Source of the DNA: Bacteroidia bacterium
GTDB lineage: Bacteria; Bacteroidota; Bacteroidia; Flavobacteriales_E; Vicingaceae
Assembly: GCA_030429925.1 (NCBI GenBank)
Contig: JAUIGQ010000007.1
Span: 1-44,085, forward strand
Direction: 5' to 3'
Length of the DNA stretch: 44,085 bases
Both the position numbers and the translations under genes were made by a program. The notes below the pieces were generated by a model. The model saw only the letters and a list, made by a program, of their open reading frames with translations. It did not search any database and was not told the DNA's origin. Positions 16,635 through 25,419 of this stretch are shown piece by piece. The number at the start of each line of letters is the position of its first letter. Within the stretch, counting starts at the first letter, position 1.

Positions 16635-18563
16635 ATGTTGACCAAATGGGTATTTACACTTCTATTGATCCTAGGTGTAGGAATTACTTGCACCTACTCT
16701 CAATCAGATAGCTCAAACTATAAATTAGTTGAGAAAGCTGAAGCAGTAATTGACCACAATGTAGATTCAGCCTTGTTCTATGCTAAAGTATTGAGCGGGA
16801 GAAAACTAGATTCAACTCTTCTACTAAAGACCTTCAATCTTCTTGGTAATTGCTTGCAAAGAAAAGGGAATCTAGACTCAGCCATGTATTACTATAAAAA
16901 AGTTGAAGAGCTTTCAATTGCCATGAAGGATGATAAGGGAATGGCCATAGTTCTCAATAACATTGGCATTATCCATATCAACAAGGGAGAGTATGATCAG
17001 GCTTTGAAAGCCATTTATGAAGCTGTAGAGTATGAAAAGTTAGTAAATGATTCTACTGGTATGGCAGAGGGCTATTTGAATATTGGGGTGATCTATTATT
17101 ATATGGGAGATCTGGAAAACACTTTGAAATACTTCAAGATCTCCTCGAATATTTCCAAAGCACTTGGAGATCTAAGAGTTTTGAAAAAGGCTTATATCAA
17201 TATTGGGGCTATACATAGTAGAAATAAGGAATATGATGAGGCTATTGAGTACTATGAATATGGATTGGAAGTAAGTGAGGAGTTGAACGATCAAGCTGAT
17301 GCAGTCATATGTCTCCACAATATGGCAGATGTTTACACAATACAAGGGAAATACAAAAAGGCTGAAGAAAACTATAGGAAAGCAATGGATTTCTACAAGA
17401 AATTCGACAATAGAAGAGGTGTTGCTTTAGAACATACAAAACTGGGAATCTTATATAATAAGATAGGTGAATATGATAAGTCTGAAAGATCTTTCAAAAG
17501 ATCAGCAGAAATGGCTGATAGTGGAAAATACTTCAATGTAAGCGAATCTGCATACCAAGGTCTTACTAACTTATACGTGAGCCAGAAGAAATTTAAGCTC
17601 GCTTTTGAAGCAACTCAAGAATTGCAGAAAAGAAGGGACAGTGTATACACTATTGAAAAGGCAAAGAATATGGATGAGTTGCGCACCAAATATGAAACTG
17701 CAGAAAAAGAAAAAATGTTAGCTCTTGAAAAATCAAGAACTGATAGCCTTACCATGGTCAATGCGGTCATAGAAGAGAAAAAGGCGAAAGCAGAGTTGGA
17801 AACTGCCAATAGGAACCAGTGGATCATTGCACTAGCATCTATATTGCTGACTTCACTTTTTGTCTTCTGGGGTTTGATGCAAAGACAAAGATTAAAGGCT
17901 CAAAAGGAGAGACAGGCTGCCTTGATTGAGGAAAGAGATAAAAGAATAGAAGCGGTTTTCAATGCCCAAGAGGAAGAACGGAAGAGAATTTCCAAAGATC
18001 TTCACGATGGAATTGGTCAACAATTAACTGCACTGAAAATGGCCTTTCAGCAACTGAGGCCAAAGATTGACGAAAGCTCAGAGGTAAAGTCGGAGCTCAA
18101 TAAATTAGGAGGAATTCTGAATCAAACGGCTTCAGACATTCGAACTATTTCTCATCAAATGATGCCAAAGACCCTTTCTGAGGTAGGGTTGATTGCGGCA
18201 ATAGAGGATCTTCTCGACAAATACATCAAGCCTACCGGCATAAATTGGAGACTTGAAAATTTGGGGATAGAGCAGCGACTTAATCAGAAAATGGAAGTAA
18301 ACCTCTATAGAATTATTCAAGAGCTTCTGAATAATGTTATTAAACATTCCAAGGCTGATGAAGTGATCTTACAATTGATCAAGAACCAGAACAGATTGAT
18401 CTTGATAGTAGAGGATAATGGAATTGGTTTCCAGAATGGTCAATCAGATGGTCACGGCTTGCTTAATATAAAAAGTAGACTAAACATGCTCAAGGGTGAA
18501 ATGGAAATTGAAGCCGGTCCGGTTAAGGGGAGTCTAACCACCATTAGAATTCCATTAACTTAG
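16635..18563 (+). CDS. TPR sensor histidine kinase (NarX/DesK-type HisKA_3)
   Basis: The 642-residue protein has a signal peptide (residues 1-22) and about six or seven TPR-like repeats between 60 and 330 with motifs such as NIGIIHINKGEYDQALK. A coiled coil follows (about 340-393), then one membrane segment (about 396-414, IIALASILLTSLFVFWGLM). The cytoplasmic kinase has the HisKA_3 H-box ERKRISKDLHDGIGQQL with H457, and the ATPase motifs ELLNNVIKHS, EDNGIGF and HGLLNI. TPRs therefore face the periplasm and probably sense by protein contact. A NarL-type response regulator lies at 20562, with a barrel gene and an opposite-strand glycosyltransferase between. This is the likely but unproven partner. 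Confidence 0.92.
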   Translation: MLTKWVFTLLLILGVGITCTYSQSDSSNYKLVEKAEAVIDHNVDSALFYAKVLSGRKLDSTLLLKTFNLLGNCLQRKGNLDSAMYYYKKVEELSIAMKDDKGMAIVLNNIGIIHINKGEYDQALKAIYEAVEYEKLVNDSTGMAEGYLNIGVIYYYMGDLENTLKYFKISSNISKALGDLRVLKKAYINIGAIHSRNKEYDEAIEYYEYGLEVSEELNDQADAVICLHNMADVYTIQGKYKKAEENYRKAMDFYKKFDNRRGVALEHTKLGILYNKIGEYDKSERSFKRSAEMADSGKYFNVSESAYQGLTNLYVSQKKFKLAFEATQELQKRRDSVYTIEKAKNMDELRTKYETAEKEKMLALEKSRTDSLTMVNAVIEEKKAKAELETANRNQWIIALASILLTSLFVFWGLMQRQRLKAQKERQAALIEERDKRIEAVFNAQEEERKRISKDLHDGIGQQLTALKMAFQQLRPKIDESSEVKSELNKLGGILNQTASDIRTISHQMMPKTLSEVGLIAAIEDLLDKYIKPTGINWRLENLGIEQRLNQKMEVNLYRIIQELLNNVIKHSKADEVILQLIKNQNRLILIVEDNGIGFQNGQSDGHGLLNIKSRLNMLKGEMEIEAGPVKGSLTTIRIPLT

Positions 18564-20561: not shown

Positions 20562-21221
20562 ATGAGTTACAAGCTTATCATAGCAGACGATCATCAATTG
20601 GTTCTTGATGGAATATCGGCAATGATCAACGAGATGCCCGAATTTGAAATTGTTGCAACGGCAAACAATGGTGTTGATGCTTTGCAAAAGCTTGATCAAA
20701 TGGGTGCTGATCTTATCCTGATGGACATAGAAATGCCAAAGATGAATGGGTTAGAGGCAGGTAGAAAGGTCAAAAAGGAATTTCCAGATGTGAAGCTGTT
20801 ATTTTTAAGCATGTATATTGAGAAACCCTTGGTTAATAAAGTAATTGACCTAGGGGCTGATGGCTATATCATCAAGAGCGCAGATAAAGAAGAGTTTTGT
20901 CTGGGGATTAGAAAGGTAATGGAAGGCAAGAAGTATTTCTGTTCTGAAATCACTGAGGTTTTGGCAAGTAATGGAGTTAGTACATCCTTTAGGCAAAATT
21001 TCACCAACAACTCTGAGCTTATATCAATCCTCACTGAAAGGGAAAGAGATGTTTTAAGATTGGTTGCGGAAGGCCTTTCCAACAAAGAAATAGGGTCAAA
21101 ACTGTTCATTTCTCATCGAACAGTAGATACACATAGGACCAATCTCATGAAGAAATTAGATGTACACTCTGTAGCTGAATTGATCAGGTTTGCCTATCAG
21201 ACTGGAGTAGTCTCAAATTGA
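20562..21221 (+). CDS. NarL/FixJ-type response regulator
   Basis: The 219-residue protein has an N-terminal receiver domain (IIADDHQLVLDG, phosphoacceptor D55 in LILMDIEMPKMNG, conserved Lys later in DGYIIKS). A C-terminal LuxR-type HTH follows (about residues 155-210, LTERERDVLRLVAEGLSNKE onward). It probably binds DNA after phosphorylation. The nearest plausible kinase is the HisKA_3 TPR kinase at 16635-18563, since HisKA_3 kinases commonly pair with NarL-type regulators. Its HTH is about 60% identical over some 57 residues to the 68-residue orphan HTH encoded 93 bases downstream. The ATG at 20562 is preferred over an upstream TTG inside the promoter. Confidence 0.94.
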   Translation: MSYKLIIADDHQLVLDGISAMINEMPEFEIVATANNGVDALQKLDQMGADLILMDIEMPKMNGLEAGRKVKKEFPDVKLLFLSMYIEKPLVNKVIDLGADGYIIKSADKEEFCLGIRKVMEGKKYFCSEITEVLASNGVSTSFRQNFTNNSELISILTERERDVLRLVAEGLSNKEIGSKLFISHRTVDTHRTNLMKKLDVHSVAELIRFAYQTGVVSN

Positions 21222-21313
21222 TCAATTAGGGTAATCACCCTATCAATCTAAGTAATTCACTCTATTTAGAACACTCTAAGTACTTTCTTATTTAGCGGTT
21301 GTAAAAAATTGCT

Positions 21314-21520
21314 ATGTCGAATATCCTTGATCTTACTAAAAGAGAATTAGAAGTTTTAGCTCTGGTAGCTGAAGGTATGTCCAATAAAGATATTGGAAAT
21401 TCCCTTCAGATCAGTCCAAGAACTGTTGACTCACACCGTACAAATATTCGCAACAAAACTGGTATTAAGAATATTGCGGGAATGATTCGTTTCGCATATA
21501 AACACAAGTTGATCCAGTGA
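21314..21520 (+). CDS. Stand-alone LuxR-type HTH DNA-binding protein
   Basis: This 68-residue protein is nothing but a GerE/LuxR-type helix-turn-helix: LTKRELEVLALVAEGMSNKD, then SPRTVDSHRTNIRNKTG and IAGMIRFAYKH. No receiver or sensor domain precedes it, and no in-frame upstream remnant was found, so it appears to be a real small gene, not the end of a broken one. It resembles the C-terminal HTH of the response regulator immediately upstream, consistent with partial duplication. Its TGA overlaps the GTG start of the propeller gene (GTGA), so it heads an operon of exported proteins. It could act as a constitutive regulator of this operon or compete with the response regulator for its sites. 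Confidence 0.88.
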   Translation: MSNILDLTKRELEVLALVAEGMSNKDIGNSLQISPRTVDSHRTNIRNKTGIKNIAGMIRFAYKHKLIQ

Positions 21521-22626
21521 AGCATCTGTTTATATATATCTGCTTGATGGTAGGTCTTATTGTACCCAGTACTTCTCTTGGCCAGAATATTAATATAGAT
21601 GAGAATAAGTGTGTTGTCAAAGAGAAAGCAATGAATATCAGTGGCCTTGATATTTCGCCGGATGGAAATCAACTGGCAATTGTTTGTGCAAGCAACTACC
21701 CACTGATGATCTATGACTGGAGAACCCAAGAGATTCTTAAAGAAATTGATATCAAATCAGATGCACTAGGCTACAGCGTTTCATACTCTAGCAAAGGGAA
21801 CTATCTATTACTACAGGAAAAAACCTTGACCAACAACATTAAGAAGGCCAAACTGAGCAACTTCATGATCATTGATATCAGTCAAGGGAAGGTAATGGAG
21901 CAATATAGGAAGATTGCAGATCTTAAGATTGCTGCAGATGAAAGCCATTACTATCTTTTAGATAAGGCGGAACTATCTGTTTATGATTTAAAGAGTGGCC
22001 AAAAGGTCAAGAGCTTTGAGATAGAAAATGCCAGAAACGCAATTGCTGTTAGTCCGGATGGCAACGACTTGGCTATAGTAGTTGAGCCAACAAAAGAAGA
22101 ACTGGTGCTTGTTCCATCAATTAGAAATGATAAAAAGGCTTTGAAGAATGCTATGAAATACAGGCATATGATCGCTATATATGATATCGGCACAGAGAAG
22201 TTCAAAAAAATCGTACCGGAGATCTATGACAATATCAATACAATGCAATACTCCAAAGACGGAAATAAACTATTGAATTTCAACGCTGCTGCCAATTCTT
22301 ATATAAATGTGATTGATGCAACTGACTACTCTCCCTTGAGAGAGGCTTATATGAGCAGAACCAATGTACAACCTGATTTCTCTTTCAATCCGGATGGAAG
22401 CCTTTTCGGCATTGCTTCCGTTGAAAGATTCCCTACTGTGAACATCTATCAAGCTGGCAAAGGAAGCATGGTAGATCATTATGATACGGAGAATAGGATT
22501 TGGAAAAGCATGAAGCAGAAAATGTATCCAGGCACTTATTCAAGCTTTGTTTTTTTACCAGAGGGCAACTATGTAATAATTGCTTATGGAAATGCCTTGA
22601 TCAAATGGAAAATCGAAGGAAAATGA
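21517..22626 (+). CDS. Exported WD40-like beta-propeller protein
   Basis: The 369-residue protein starts with GTG, overlapping the stop of the HTH gene by four bases. The GTG is supported because it gives a complete signal peptide (MKHLFIYICLMVGLIVPSTSLGQ). The mature part has repeats with ISPDGNQLAIV, VSPDGNDLAIV and FNPDGSLFGIA, the SPDG blade signature of WD40/PD40-like propellers, at roughly regular spacing. It probably binds a partner protein or ligand in the periplasm. The next gene overlaps its stop by four bases (ATGA), so the operon is tightly coupled. No enzymatic motif is visible. Confidence 0.78.
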   Translation: MKHLFIYICLMVGLIVPSTSLGQNINIDENKCVVKEKAMNISGLDISPDGNQLAIVCASNYPLMIYDWRTQEILKEIDIKSDALGYSVSYSSKGNYLLLQEKTLTNNIKKAKLSNFMIIDISQGKVMEQYRKIADLKIAADESHYYLLDKAELSVYDLKSGQKVKSFEIENARNAIAVSPDGNDLAIVVEPTKEELVLVPSIRNDKKALKNAMKYRHMIAIYDIGTEKFKKIVPEIYDNINTMQYSKDGNKLLNFNAAANSYINVIDATDYSPLREAYMSRTNVQPDFSFNPDGSLFGIASVERFPTVNIYQAGKGSMVDHYDTENRIWKSMKQKMYPGTYSSFVFLPEGNYVIIAYGNALIKWKIEGK

Positions 22627-22994
22627 AAAGAACAATCCAATTTGCTCTGATAATATGTATTTGTGTTTGCAGCTTCCAAAGCGATCTCTATGCTCAGAAA
22701 AAAAAGTATTTGATAGAGGAAGAAGAAGTGATCGAAGCGGCTCACAAGGCAATTGAAAAATCTATGGCTGAAGGTGATTTTAAAAAATTTGCCGAGAAAT
22801 CTGAAATAAAGGGAAGTTATATAATGGATATTACCATTAAAAATAAAGGTGAAGTAGCTTCAGTGAAGACTATTGATAGAAATGGAGAGATCGTTCACCA
22901 AAATGAGCTTAAAGACTTCGTGATATCATACAGGTTTCCCTTTAAAATGCAAAAAAACAAGAGTTACAAGTTTCGATATGAATTCAAATTTTAA
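22623..22994 (+). CDS. Small exported protein with a possible TonB C-terminal-like domain
   Basis: The protein is 123 residues from the ATG at 22623, which overlaps the propeller gene stop (ATGA). A longer frame opens at 22500, but it would lack a signal peptide and lie inside the previous gene. The signal peptide is MKRTIQFALIICICVCSFQSDLYAQ. The C-terminal half (about residues 65-123: IMDITIKNKGEVASVKTID, later YRFPFKMQKNKSYKFRYEFKF) resembles the beta-alpha-beta pattern of TonB_C or AgmX-type domains. No TonB proline-rich linker or retained membrane anchor is seen. It may be a periplasmic interaction partner of the flanking propellers. The domain call is tentative. Confidence 0.65.
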   Translation: MKRTIQFALIICICVCSFQSDLYAQKKKYLIEEEEVIEAAHKAIEKSMAEGDFKKFAEKSEIKGSYIMDITIKNKGEVASVKTIDRNGEIVHQNELKDFVISYRFPFKMQKNKSYKFRYEFKF

Positions 22995-23019: not shown

Positions 23020-24654
23020 ATGAAAAGATCACTATTTGTTGTAGCAGCTTTAATCTTCGGATCATTTGCTTTGAATGCTCAAGAGGAAATGGAAGTAGCC
23101 TGGACCAAATCTTATGACCACAAAGGAGAAAGAGTTGGAACCGGCCTGGAAGGAGAAGGTGAAGTAAGTTATACATCCGACAGTAAGACCATGACCGTTT
23201 TTAATACTTCTGATGGTTCTGTGGTATGGTCAAAGGACTTTAAAGACCTAGCACCGAAACTAAGAAAGGTCGATGAACTTATTCCTTTTTGGAAATCTGG
23301 CTGTGTATTCCTATTTGAAAAGAAAGGAGGTAAAGACCAGATCGTAGTGATAGATCTGAAGAAAGGTGAAATGTTGTGGAATACTGAAAAGTATAAGAAT
23401 TTGACTAGAGATAATGTTATCTACATCAAAGAAACAGATGCATTTTTACTTTCTCTTGAAGATAGAATCATATACATTCATGCAAGAACCGGAGAAGAAG
23501 TATGGGAGTCAACTGCCTTTGTCGGCTCTGTTGGTGCATGGGACATTAGAGATGGATACATGACTGCCATGAATATTTTGCCAACTGGATTGTCAGCATT
23601 GTTCAAAGGATTTAAAAATCAAATTGCCAAGATCGACCTATCTAATGGGGATATTGTTTGGACCAATGAATACATTGGATTTGCAGCTAGAAAGGTGATC
23701 ACCAAGGAGAGGATCTTCGACTTAAAGATCACAGAAAACAAGGTTGTGATTACTTTGAACGGACTACAAGTTTATGATTTCAATACAGGTGCTCAATTAT
23801 GGTCAGCTGCCTATCCAGAAACTCCGAAAGTTATTGGTGCACCGGCCGGAGCAAAAGCATTTGGTGTTTATGGGGCAATTGCAGACCCATTAAGAGTAGG
23901 TGATGATATCTATATAATTGAAATGAACAAAAAATCAGATCAGAAGATCAAGAAGTATGATGTTCATACCGGAAAACTTTTATGGACTTCACCTGAGATC
24001 AAAAATGCTAAGGCATTGCCAAATCTATATGTGGTTGAAGACAGAGTGATCGTTCAAATTGGTGGAGTAGTTGAAACTCAAGCTTATATCAGAAGAAAAA
24101 CTCAAGATGGTTGGGAAGAAGAATGGATCGTGGATTATGTGAATGTCAAGCCAAATGGACTACAGGCGTTTAGCACAGAAGACGGTTCCCTAGTTTGGGC
24201 TTCTGAAAAATTCAAAAAAGGAATAACCAATGCATTTGTAGATAATGATATACTATATGTCAGCAGCGGCAAATCCATTTACTCAATGAACTATAAAGAT
24301 GGTGCAGTCAACTTTGAAGAGGATGTCAAGAATGGAGGTGTTGGTAATGCAGTTAAGATCCTTCCATATAAAGACAAGATTGTAGTAGTTGGAGAAAAGG
24401 GTATCTCAACGTTTGCAATGAAGGATGGCAGCCTTCTTAATGCTAATAAGTATAAGAAAGCAGCAGTGTCAGAGCAGGAAGACAATATCCTCTTAATGGT
24501 TACACCAAAGAATGATTTTGCAGCATTTAATTTGGAAGATTGTTCTTATAGAGAGTACAATGCCAAAAAGAACTCACAGCAATCTTTAAGTGAAGATGGA
24601 AGGTTTGTATGGGTCTATGAGAAAAAGGACGTCACCAAATTAAAAGTTAGATAG
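23020..24654 (+). CDS. Exported PQQ-like beta-propeller protein
   Basis: The protein has 544 residues from the ATG at 23020; a frame from 22978 would put extra sequence before the signal peptide and is rejected. The signal peptide is MKRSLFVVAALIFGSFALNAQ. The mature part has PQQ-like blades with recurring W-near-end signatures such as DGSVVWSKDF, KGEMLWNTEKY, TGEEVWES, NGDIVWTNEY, GAQLWSAAY, GKLLWTSPE and DGSLVWASEKF: seven recognisable blades. Catalytic PQQ-dehydrogenase residues are not evident, so it is more likely a scaffold or binding propeller than an enzyme. It follows the small exported protein by 25 bases and is the last gene before a terminator. Confidence 0.85.
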   Translation: MKRSLFVVAALIFGSFALNAQEEMEVAWTKSYDHKGERVGTGLEGEGEVSYTSDSKTMTVFNTSDGSVVWSKDFKDLAPKLRKVDELIPFWKSGCVFLFEKKGGKDQIVVIDLKKGEMLWNTEKYKNLTRDNVIYIKETDAFLLSLEDRIIYIHARTGEEVWESTAFVGSVGAWDIRDGYMTAMNILPTGLSALFKGFKNQIAKIDLSNGDIVWTNEYIGFAARKVITKERIFDLKITENKVVITLNGLQVYDFNTGAQLWSAAYPETPKVIGAPAGAKAFGVYGAIADPLRVGDDIYIIEMNKKSDQKIKKYDVHTGKLLWTSPEIKNAKALPNLYVVEDRVIVQIGGVVETQAYIRRKTQDGWEEEWIVDYVNVKPNGLQAFSTEDGSLVWASEKFKKGITNAFVDNDILYVSSGKSIYSMNYKDGAVNFEEDVKNGGVGNAVKILPYKDKIVVVGEKGISTFAMKDGSLLNANKYKKAAVSEQEDNILLMVTPKNDFAAFNLEDCSYREYNAKKNSQQSLSEDGRFVWVYEKKDVTKLKVR

Positions 24655-24795: not shown

Positions 24796-25419
24796 ATGAA
24801 AAAGTTAGGATTTGTTATAGCAACTGCTCTTGCAGTTTTAATTGTGTTTGCCTTCAGTGGCGGAGAAGAGTATGAAACTTTAAAGATCGGCTCCAAAGCA
24901 CCTAAGATCGATTATGAGATGGAATCCACTCAAGGGGAAATGGTCAGCGTAAAATCCTTAATGAAGGAAAATGGAACACTCATCATATACTCCTGCAATA
25001 CTTGTCCCTTTGTGATCGCATGGGAAGACCGCTATCCTGAAATTGCCGGTTGGGCTGAATCTGCCAAAGTTGGATTTGCTCTCATTAACTCTAATGAAGC
25101 TAAAAGGCAAGGTGATGATTCAATGGAAGAAATGAAGAACCACGCTGCTGAAAAGGGTTATCCAGATATTCCTTACTTGGTAGATAACAATTCAGAATTG
25201 GCAAATGCCTATGGTGCAAAGACTACCCCTCATGTATTCTTGTTCGATAAGAATTGGAAACTGGTATATGAAGGTGCGATCGATAACAATCACAAGGACA
25301 TGAATGCAGCTGATCAGCCTTATCTGAAAAATGCATTGAAGAATCTCTCAGAGGGAAATGTGATCGACCCTAATGATACTAAAGCGCTAGGCTGTAGCAT
25401 CAAAAGGGTAAAGATCTAG
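24796..25419 (+). CDS. Exported or membrane-anchored thioredoxin-fold protein (redoxin type)
   Basis: The 207-residue protein starts at the ATG at 24796 (an upstream TTG at 24790 adds two residues). It has an N-terminal hydrophobic segment (about 4-20), then a redoxin fold: APKIDYEMESTQGE, LIIYSCNTCPFVIAWEDRY with a CNTC motif, INSNEAKRQGDD, and the cis-Pro segment AKTTPHVFLFDKNWKLVYEGAIDN. This pattern is common among AhpC/TSA-related thioredoxin-family proteins of unknown target. It probably acts in the periplasm as a thiol reductase. It is monocistronic: a terminator lies upstream and the convergent DUF3078 gene ends 10 bases after it. Confidence 0.88.
   Translation: MKKLGFVIATALAVLIVFAFSGGEEYETLKIGSKAPKIDYEMESTQGEMVSVKSLMKENGTLIIYSCNTCPFVIAWEDRYPEIAGWAESAKVGFALINSNEAKRQGDDSMEEMKNHAAEKGYPDIPYLVDNNSELANAYGAKTTPHVFLFDKNWKLVYEGAIDNNHKDMNAADQPYLKNALKNLSEGNVIDPNDTKALGCSIKRVKI

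Follow-up and report, generated by a model that had tools for sequence, protein, structure and literature searches.

In the stretch of 44,085 nucleotides analysed here (the window), one contig of a 2.6-Mb Bacteroidota draft genome, the gene of a NarL-type response regulator (RR) is followed by a gene for a small helix-turn-helix (HTH) protein, sHTH. Judged from sequence, sHTH is most likely a real second regulator of an operon and lipoprotein gene set. The explanation preferred here, with a probability of about 0.6, is that sHTH is a working regulator derived from the duplicated HTH of the RR, which shares the operators of the RR, is triggered by it, and then acts on its own promoter, operon, and lipoprotein genes.

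The sHTH gene and its neighbours

The genes of the region are as follows.

16635-18563, + strand, TPR-HisKA_3 sensor histidine kinase, likely partner of the RR (Pfam HisKA_3, HATPase_c, TPR; syntenic in relatives)
20562-21221, + strand, NarL-type RR with receiver and GerE HTH, 219 aa (Pfam Response_reg 90 bits, GerE 83 bits)
21314-21520, + strand, sHTH, 68-aa receiver-less GerE/LuxR HTH protein (Pfam GerE 71 bits; seven orthologues in all)
21517-22626, + strand, exported WD40-like beta-propeller protein (4-bp GTGA overlap with sHTH; Pfam, synteny)
22623-22994, + strand, exported TonB_C-like protein (Pfam TonB_C under cut-off; syntenic)
23020-24654, + strand, exported PQQ/BamB-like beta-propeller protein (Pfam PQQ_2 88 bits; 55-62% identity in relatives)
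24796-25419, + strand, redoxin/thioredoxin-like protein, end of the conserved block (Pfam; synteny)

The sHTH reading frame has an ATG start, 92 bp beyond the RR stop, in a stop-to-stop frame of 71 codons. Its match to Pfam GerE (PF00196; cut-off 23.5 bits) has an E value of 6e-20 over positions 3-57 of 57, and all of its Pfam matches are of the HTH type, with no receiver, PAS, TPR, or other sensor domain. By possession of a receiver, the neighbour at 20562-21221 is a NarL-type RR and sHTH is not. An earlier note on this DNA had described a 68-residue LuxR-type HTH without a receiver, which is what was found; of the span that it gave, 21155-21520, the end is correct, but 21155 falls within the RR gene and the protein begins at 21314.

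The AF2 model of sHTH (pLDDT 90) is a four-helix HTH, with helices at 9-19, 24-31, 35-49, and 54-63, for which the best Foldseek matches are LiaR, VraR, DegU, NarL, and GerE. The nearest solved structures, the NarL output domain and the DNA-binding domains of VraR, LiaR, and DegU, have the same fold; these are parts of full RRs, isolated as laboratory constructs, whereas sHTH is natural. To probe the role of the receiver in NarL-type regulators, output domains lacking it have long been constructed in the laboratory.

The 4-bp overlap with the next reading frame, together with synteny, upholds the proposal that the small HTH heads an operon of exported proteins. Signal-peptide-like N-termini, judged by eye, are present on the products of 21517-22626, 22623-22994, and 23020-24654. 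Upstream, we infer that the TPR histidine kinase feeds the linked RR. Between 24654 and 24796, the window is without the PD40/OmpA gene that several relatives have between PQQ and redoxin. Towards the contig end (43200-44085), GC rises from about 0.40 to 0.57 and the ORFs are unlike the rest; this is possibly a chimeric contig end or mobile DNA.

Conservation and synteny

Orthologues of sHTH are present in seven of the 46 family genomes (G003, G006, G008, G019, G033, G036, and the genome of the window), which represent six genera and keep it as a small gene of its own; the evidence base is these seven genomes, all related. The mean column identity of the seven proteins is 75%, and dN is 0.13-0.40 with dS saturated. 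These comparisons indicate that sHTH is under purifying selection.

The same operon is headed by sHTH in all seven genomes, and RR orthologues (47-54% identity) are present in every one of them. The conserved block runs from a carboxylase through one or two TPR histidine kinases, an antisense glycosyltransferase, the RR, and sHTH to WD40, TonB_C, PQQ, in some cases PD40/OmpA, and redoxin; it is retained with local gaps in six of the sHTH genomes. In Acidiluteibacter (G019), the RR lies with the carboxylase and redoxin on a different contig and sHTH still heads the WD40 operon.

In G001, which belongs to the same genus as the window genome, RR, sHTH, and operon were not found at the thresholds used. 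Outside the family, no stand-alone orthologue was found in samples of 395 class and 395 phylum genomes (E 1e-29), and in a contig search reaching close relatives only, the Acidiluteibacter gene was the sole stand-alone match. One family genome, G010, has kept the RR and is missing sHTH, operon, and double site (described below) together, and the WD40 operon of four others (G017, G004, G028, and G018) is a distant one, accompanied by neither sHTH nor site.

Relationship of sHTH to the response regulator

BLASTP aligns sHTH and the RR with 34/57 positions identical and 46/57 similar (E 5e-22), reproducing the earlier note's count of about 34 of 57 HTH positions shared with the RR C-terminus. The linked RR is closer to sHTH (57-60%) than are the two further full-length GerE proteins that the genome encodes (40-44%), and within-genome identity between sHTH and RR is 53-67%, against an average of 49% to other GerE domains. 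Since sHTH is nearer to the linked RR, and is kept as a separate small gene in six genera, the likeness is beyond that expected by chance for a common GerE domain.

In a maximum-likelihood tree of 62 HTH domains (69 columns; supports as aLRT/UFBoot), the seven sHTHs are monophyletic (76.9/96) and fall within a clade (94.6/96) that holds the seven linked RRs and four other RRs. Distant clades were not seen, and the claim that sHTH is a duplicate of the RR HTH is borne out. As read from these sequences, the duplication is real but old; it predates the split of the compared genera and is therefore not recent. Under the preferred explanation, the HTH of the linked NarL-type RR, or that of a near relative of this RR, would have been duplicated before the genera split, giving rise to sHTH. 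In a survey of Actinobacteria, single-domain proteins were found within receiver-LuxR clades, and fusion, fission, and transfer were invoked (PMC3466318).

All seven RRs have the recognition helix TVDTHRTN and all sHTHs have TVD[TS]HRTN, and most other sampled RRs have R or K replacing the last T, the last variable position. The residues right after this helix differ consistently, being N-L-M-K-K in the RRs and N-I-R-N-K in the sHTHs, and with I45-R46-N47 in place of L-M-K the specificity or partner choice of sHTH may differ.

Candidate operators

The suggestion that sHTH binds the same sites as the RR gains partial support, in that a candidate common site lies within the region named for it (21222-21313) and the recognition helix is shared, so that both proteins may recognise the same kind of 16-bp operator. 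The elements of this region are as follows.

21227-21242, + strand, candidate operator site A, TAGGGTAATCACCCTA, a 16-bp pseudo-palindrome kept before 7/7 sHTH orthologues
21249-21264, + strand, candidate operator site B, TAAGTAATTCACTCTA, a second 16-bp pseudo-palindrome, followed by TTT (21265-21267) in the -33 region
21288-21295, + strand, weak -7 element of the Bacteroidota type, TTATTTAG, 39 bp beyond the first base of site B, with a predicted transcript start near 21300

The candidate operator is 16 bp, roughly TA[CG]GnnnnnnACYCTA, with 22-23 bp from the start of one copy to that of the other. The 7-2-7 site of NarL has the same length. Sites A and B were aligned by eye in the seven genomes and then tested by leave-one-out PWMs, which found the double site in each of the seven sHTH promoters (25.6-41.2 bits; 37.9 bits for A+B in the window), and no matches as good as the real double sites were found in 600 kb of simulated sequence. 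With 0-1 mismatch, matches to the double-site pattern across the 46 genomes are at sHTH/WD40 promoters only, and in its own genome the pair at 21227-21264 is the sole match, with 0 mismatches. When up to 3 mismatches are allowed, reversed-pattern controls give 0-3 matches on each strand of a genome, therefore 3-mismatch matches elsewhere are background. One 2-mismatch match (G023) is inside a gene and was taken as chance.

Where WD40 is a separate unit (G033, G003, and G036), the double site is also present before WD40, and the G008 WD40 promoter has a clear site B alone; in G000, G006, and G019, in which sHTH overlaps or adjoins WD40, there is one double site. Nearly every transcription unit therefore has its own site.

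Two weaker lines of evidence were discarded. The single-site pattern gives 160 matches in the window genome against 195 for the reversed control. Likewise, the palindrome alone is not significant, as there are 24 such inverted repeats in the window and 311/5000 shuffles are as symmetric; the case for an operator is therefore one of cross-genome conservation only.

It is highly improbable that the intergenic inverted repeat is an RNA element, either terminator or leader structure, instead of an operator. The 92-nt region does fold better than shuffles (z -4.1), but there is no T-run after the hairpin, and the terminator reading was rejected for this reason. By promoter geometry the elements precede the transcript start, and those at the promoters of WD40 and of lipoprotein genes do not stand behind the RR.

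Site A is near-palindromic, and site B has two unlike halves (TACG and ACTCTA) in nearly all promoters. This would suit a heterodimer of sHTH and RR reading the asymmetric B while homodimers read the palindromic A. A precedent is the LuxR-type pair BldM-WhiI of Streptomyces, whose two kinds of site, one palindromic and one half-changed, are 16 bp each, as here, and RcsB pairs with RcsA, BglJ, and GadE (PMC4125116). However, BldM and WhiI are two response regulators, as against an RR and a bare HTH. As the right half of B lies directly against the -33 region, the asymmetry of the site may serve the polymerase, and the double site is present in a genome, G460, in which no sHTH was found. A division of the sites between heterodimer and homodimers is therefore rather unlikely.

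Promoter geometry and the sign of regulation

In Bacteroidota the -7 element has the consensus TANNTTTG, whose first T lies at -12 (PMC6847099). Counting 39 bp from the beginning of site B, the octamers of 17 promoters together agree with this consensus at 82/102 letters; every other offset scores far lower, and 2000 shuffles reach <=51/102. Of the 17, one or two were chosen with a pattern that includes the -7 (this is certain for G006_lipo2) and are not independent. Relative to the predicted start, A and B are centred near -66 and -43, with the TTT of the -33 region directly after B. The -33 TTTG is poor in the site-B promoters, and the -7 matches 3-5 of 6 in the sHTH promoters and 5-6 of 6 in the WD40 and lipoprotein promoters. 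A constant distance from B to the -7 and a poor -33 TTTG are as expected of activator-dependent promoters, and the fixed spacing of operator and promoter favours activation at the sHTH, WD40, and lipoprotein promoters. A third half-site, CACTCTA, is present at 21272-21278, between -33 and -7, in the window genome only.

NarL- and VraR-type RRs hide or release the HTH through phosphorylation (PMC4549865, PMC9263151), a switch that a bare HTH escapes, having no receiver. Bare-HTH regulators are instead set by their own synthesis or redox state, as for GerE, which is controlled via its own synthesis, ClbR, and PedR (PMC7364221, PMC13421787). Escape from the phosphorylation switch and these precedents favour a control of sHTH that is RR-triggered and self-sustained. 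In the proposed mechanism, the neighbouring TPR histidine kinase would phosphorylate the RR, which would turn on the sHTH promoter via the two operator copies; sHTH, without an inhibiting receiver, would then act on the same double sites, which precede its own gene, the beta-propeller/TonB_C operon, and dispersed lipoprotein genes. The net effect would probably be to sustain or amplify expression, activation being slightly favoured over damping.

The opposite sign is plausible but less likely: sHTH may fill the RR operators without activating, giving a negative feedback that caps the RR response, similar to the competitor that the earlier note had offered beside a constitutive activator. The sHTH gene is downstream of the same operator, as for a feedback repressor, and the window promoter has the extra half-site between -33 and -7. 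On its own, the NarL output domain is a monomer that binds narG sites partially, represses frdA, and is unable to activate narG (PMC4549865), and for LiaR and DegU binding is better when the receiver is present (PMC9263151). On these examples sHTH may, having lost the receiver, be weak or negative and, as the NarL domain can repress and fails to activate, either sign is plausible in spite of the activator-like spacing. Against damping are the activator geometry of the operators, the retention of sHTH with the operon where the RR is elsewhere (G019), and the single-domain members GerE and PedR, which are able to activate (PMC7364221, PMC13421787).

Lipoprotein genes and the reader of the site

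Further intergenic matches to the double site are three with 2 mismatches (two in G003 and one in G006) and one from the PWM (G036), and there is one match to site B plus promoter in G006. For the pattern of site B with the -7, 2 mismatches are background, and those kept had 0-1 mismatch, an intergenic position, and a gene at the right distance. All five immediately precede genes for lipoproteins in which acidic residues follow the lipobox cysteine (L166, L167, L153, L216, and L040:2338-3354); these have acidic stretches, often with N/G/S-rich linkers, and no Pfam match in the two that were scanned. A lipoprotein target is not claimed in the window genome, in which the four 1-mismatch matches are within open frames or without a convincing gene.

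Among the weaker matches, one of 16.8 bits in G019 (L042:4869, - strand) is between the first kinase and a divergent gene for a 658-aa exported-type protein.

The genome G460, of another family in the same class, has a histidine kinase and RR, the latter with the helix TVDTHRTN. Behind this RR is a double site (31.5 bits, not used to build the model) with TAATTTTG at the exact spacing, preceding a small zinc-ribbon/HTH ORF and a T9SS-type secreted protein; sHTH was not found in 19 kb or by a genome search at E 1e-29. The site therefore looks like the RR's own kind, with the RR as its original reader. This could also mean that the RR is the sole reader and sHTH a bystander DNA-binding protein with other targets, which is distinctly unlikely, since the recognition helix is common to both, the sHTH gene always carries the site, and in G010, which keeps its RR, the sites are missing together with sHTH. 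Within the family, site and sHTH occur together (G010 and the four genomes with a distant WD40 operon have neither), and with the RR as the apparent original reader the economical reading is that both proteins use the site. On this pattern, RR and sHTH are probably the proteins that bind the double sites.

Comparison with known systems

GerE of Bacillus subtilis is, like sHTH, a stand-alone GerE/LuxR HTH of about 70 aa without a receiver. Its structure (1fse) matches the sHTH model with a Foldseek TM of 0.88 and 32% identity, the sequence match being weak (phmmer 28 bits). Unlike sHTH, it is a sporulation regulator with no paired parent RR. PedR of Synechocystis is also a small LuxR-type HTH, is autoregulated, and acts via a Cys80 disulfide and thioredoxin (PMC13421787). 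It is the second-best NCBIfam match of sHTH (59.7 bits, under the cut-off of 120); as sHTH has no cysteine (count 0), a PedR-like redox control was rejected. ClbR of the E. coli colibactin cluster, compared by its published description only, is LuxR-like without REC and acts on the promoter region beside its own gene (PMC7364221), but is not a paralogue of an adjacent RR.

Single-domain LuxR regulators are known, and the proposed circuit of an RR with an HTH-only paralogue would be a new variation on them; a literature text search for this arrangement gave no match, which is weak evidence of absence. From the comparisons above, sHTH would be a freed output domain, from the linked RR or near kin, that has been kept naturally and conserved with its operators across genera, and the effect of such a domain on its parent regulon is thus directly testable. 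A Bacteroidota two-component system would also gain from this a defined candidate operator and a set of candidate surface genes as its regulon.

Related arrangements and motifs

A related but distinct motif, TGAG...TTTACCCCTATT, is present before -7-like elements in G036 (C250:3135, C116:9135, and C341:5450), with one copy near another GerE gene; perhaps it is the operator of another RR.

More speculatively, the RR and its receiver-less HTH copy might form a self-contained circuit and co-occupy the paired operators, as hetero- or ordered homodimers, turning a phosphorylation pulse into lasting expression of surface lipoprotein and beta-propeller genes, in a pair possibly arisen twice in the family. 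A 16-bp palindrome between the members of a second pair, found in G020 and G011, was rejected as evidence, being within chance. In this pair (G020 L044:7622-8565 and G011 L045:9635-10578), an RR is followed by a 73-aa stand-alone HTH, both with TVDTHRKN; the downstream genes are different, the two HTHs group in the tree without support (0/40), and the pair is possibly an independent case of an RR with an HTH-only protein.
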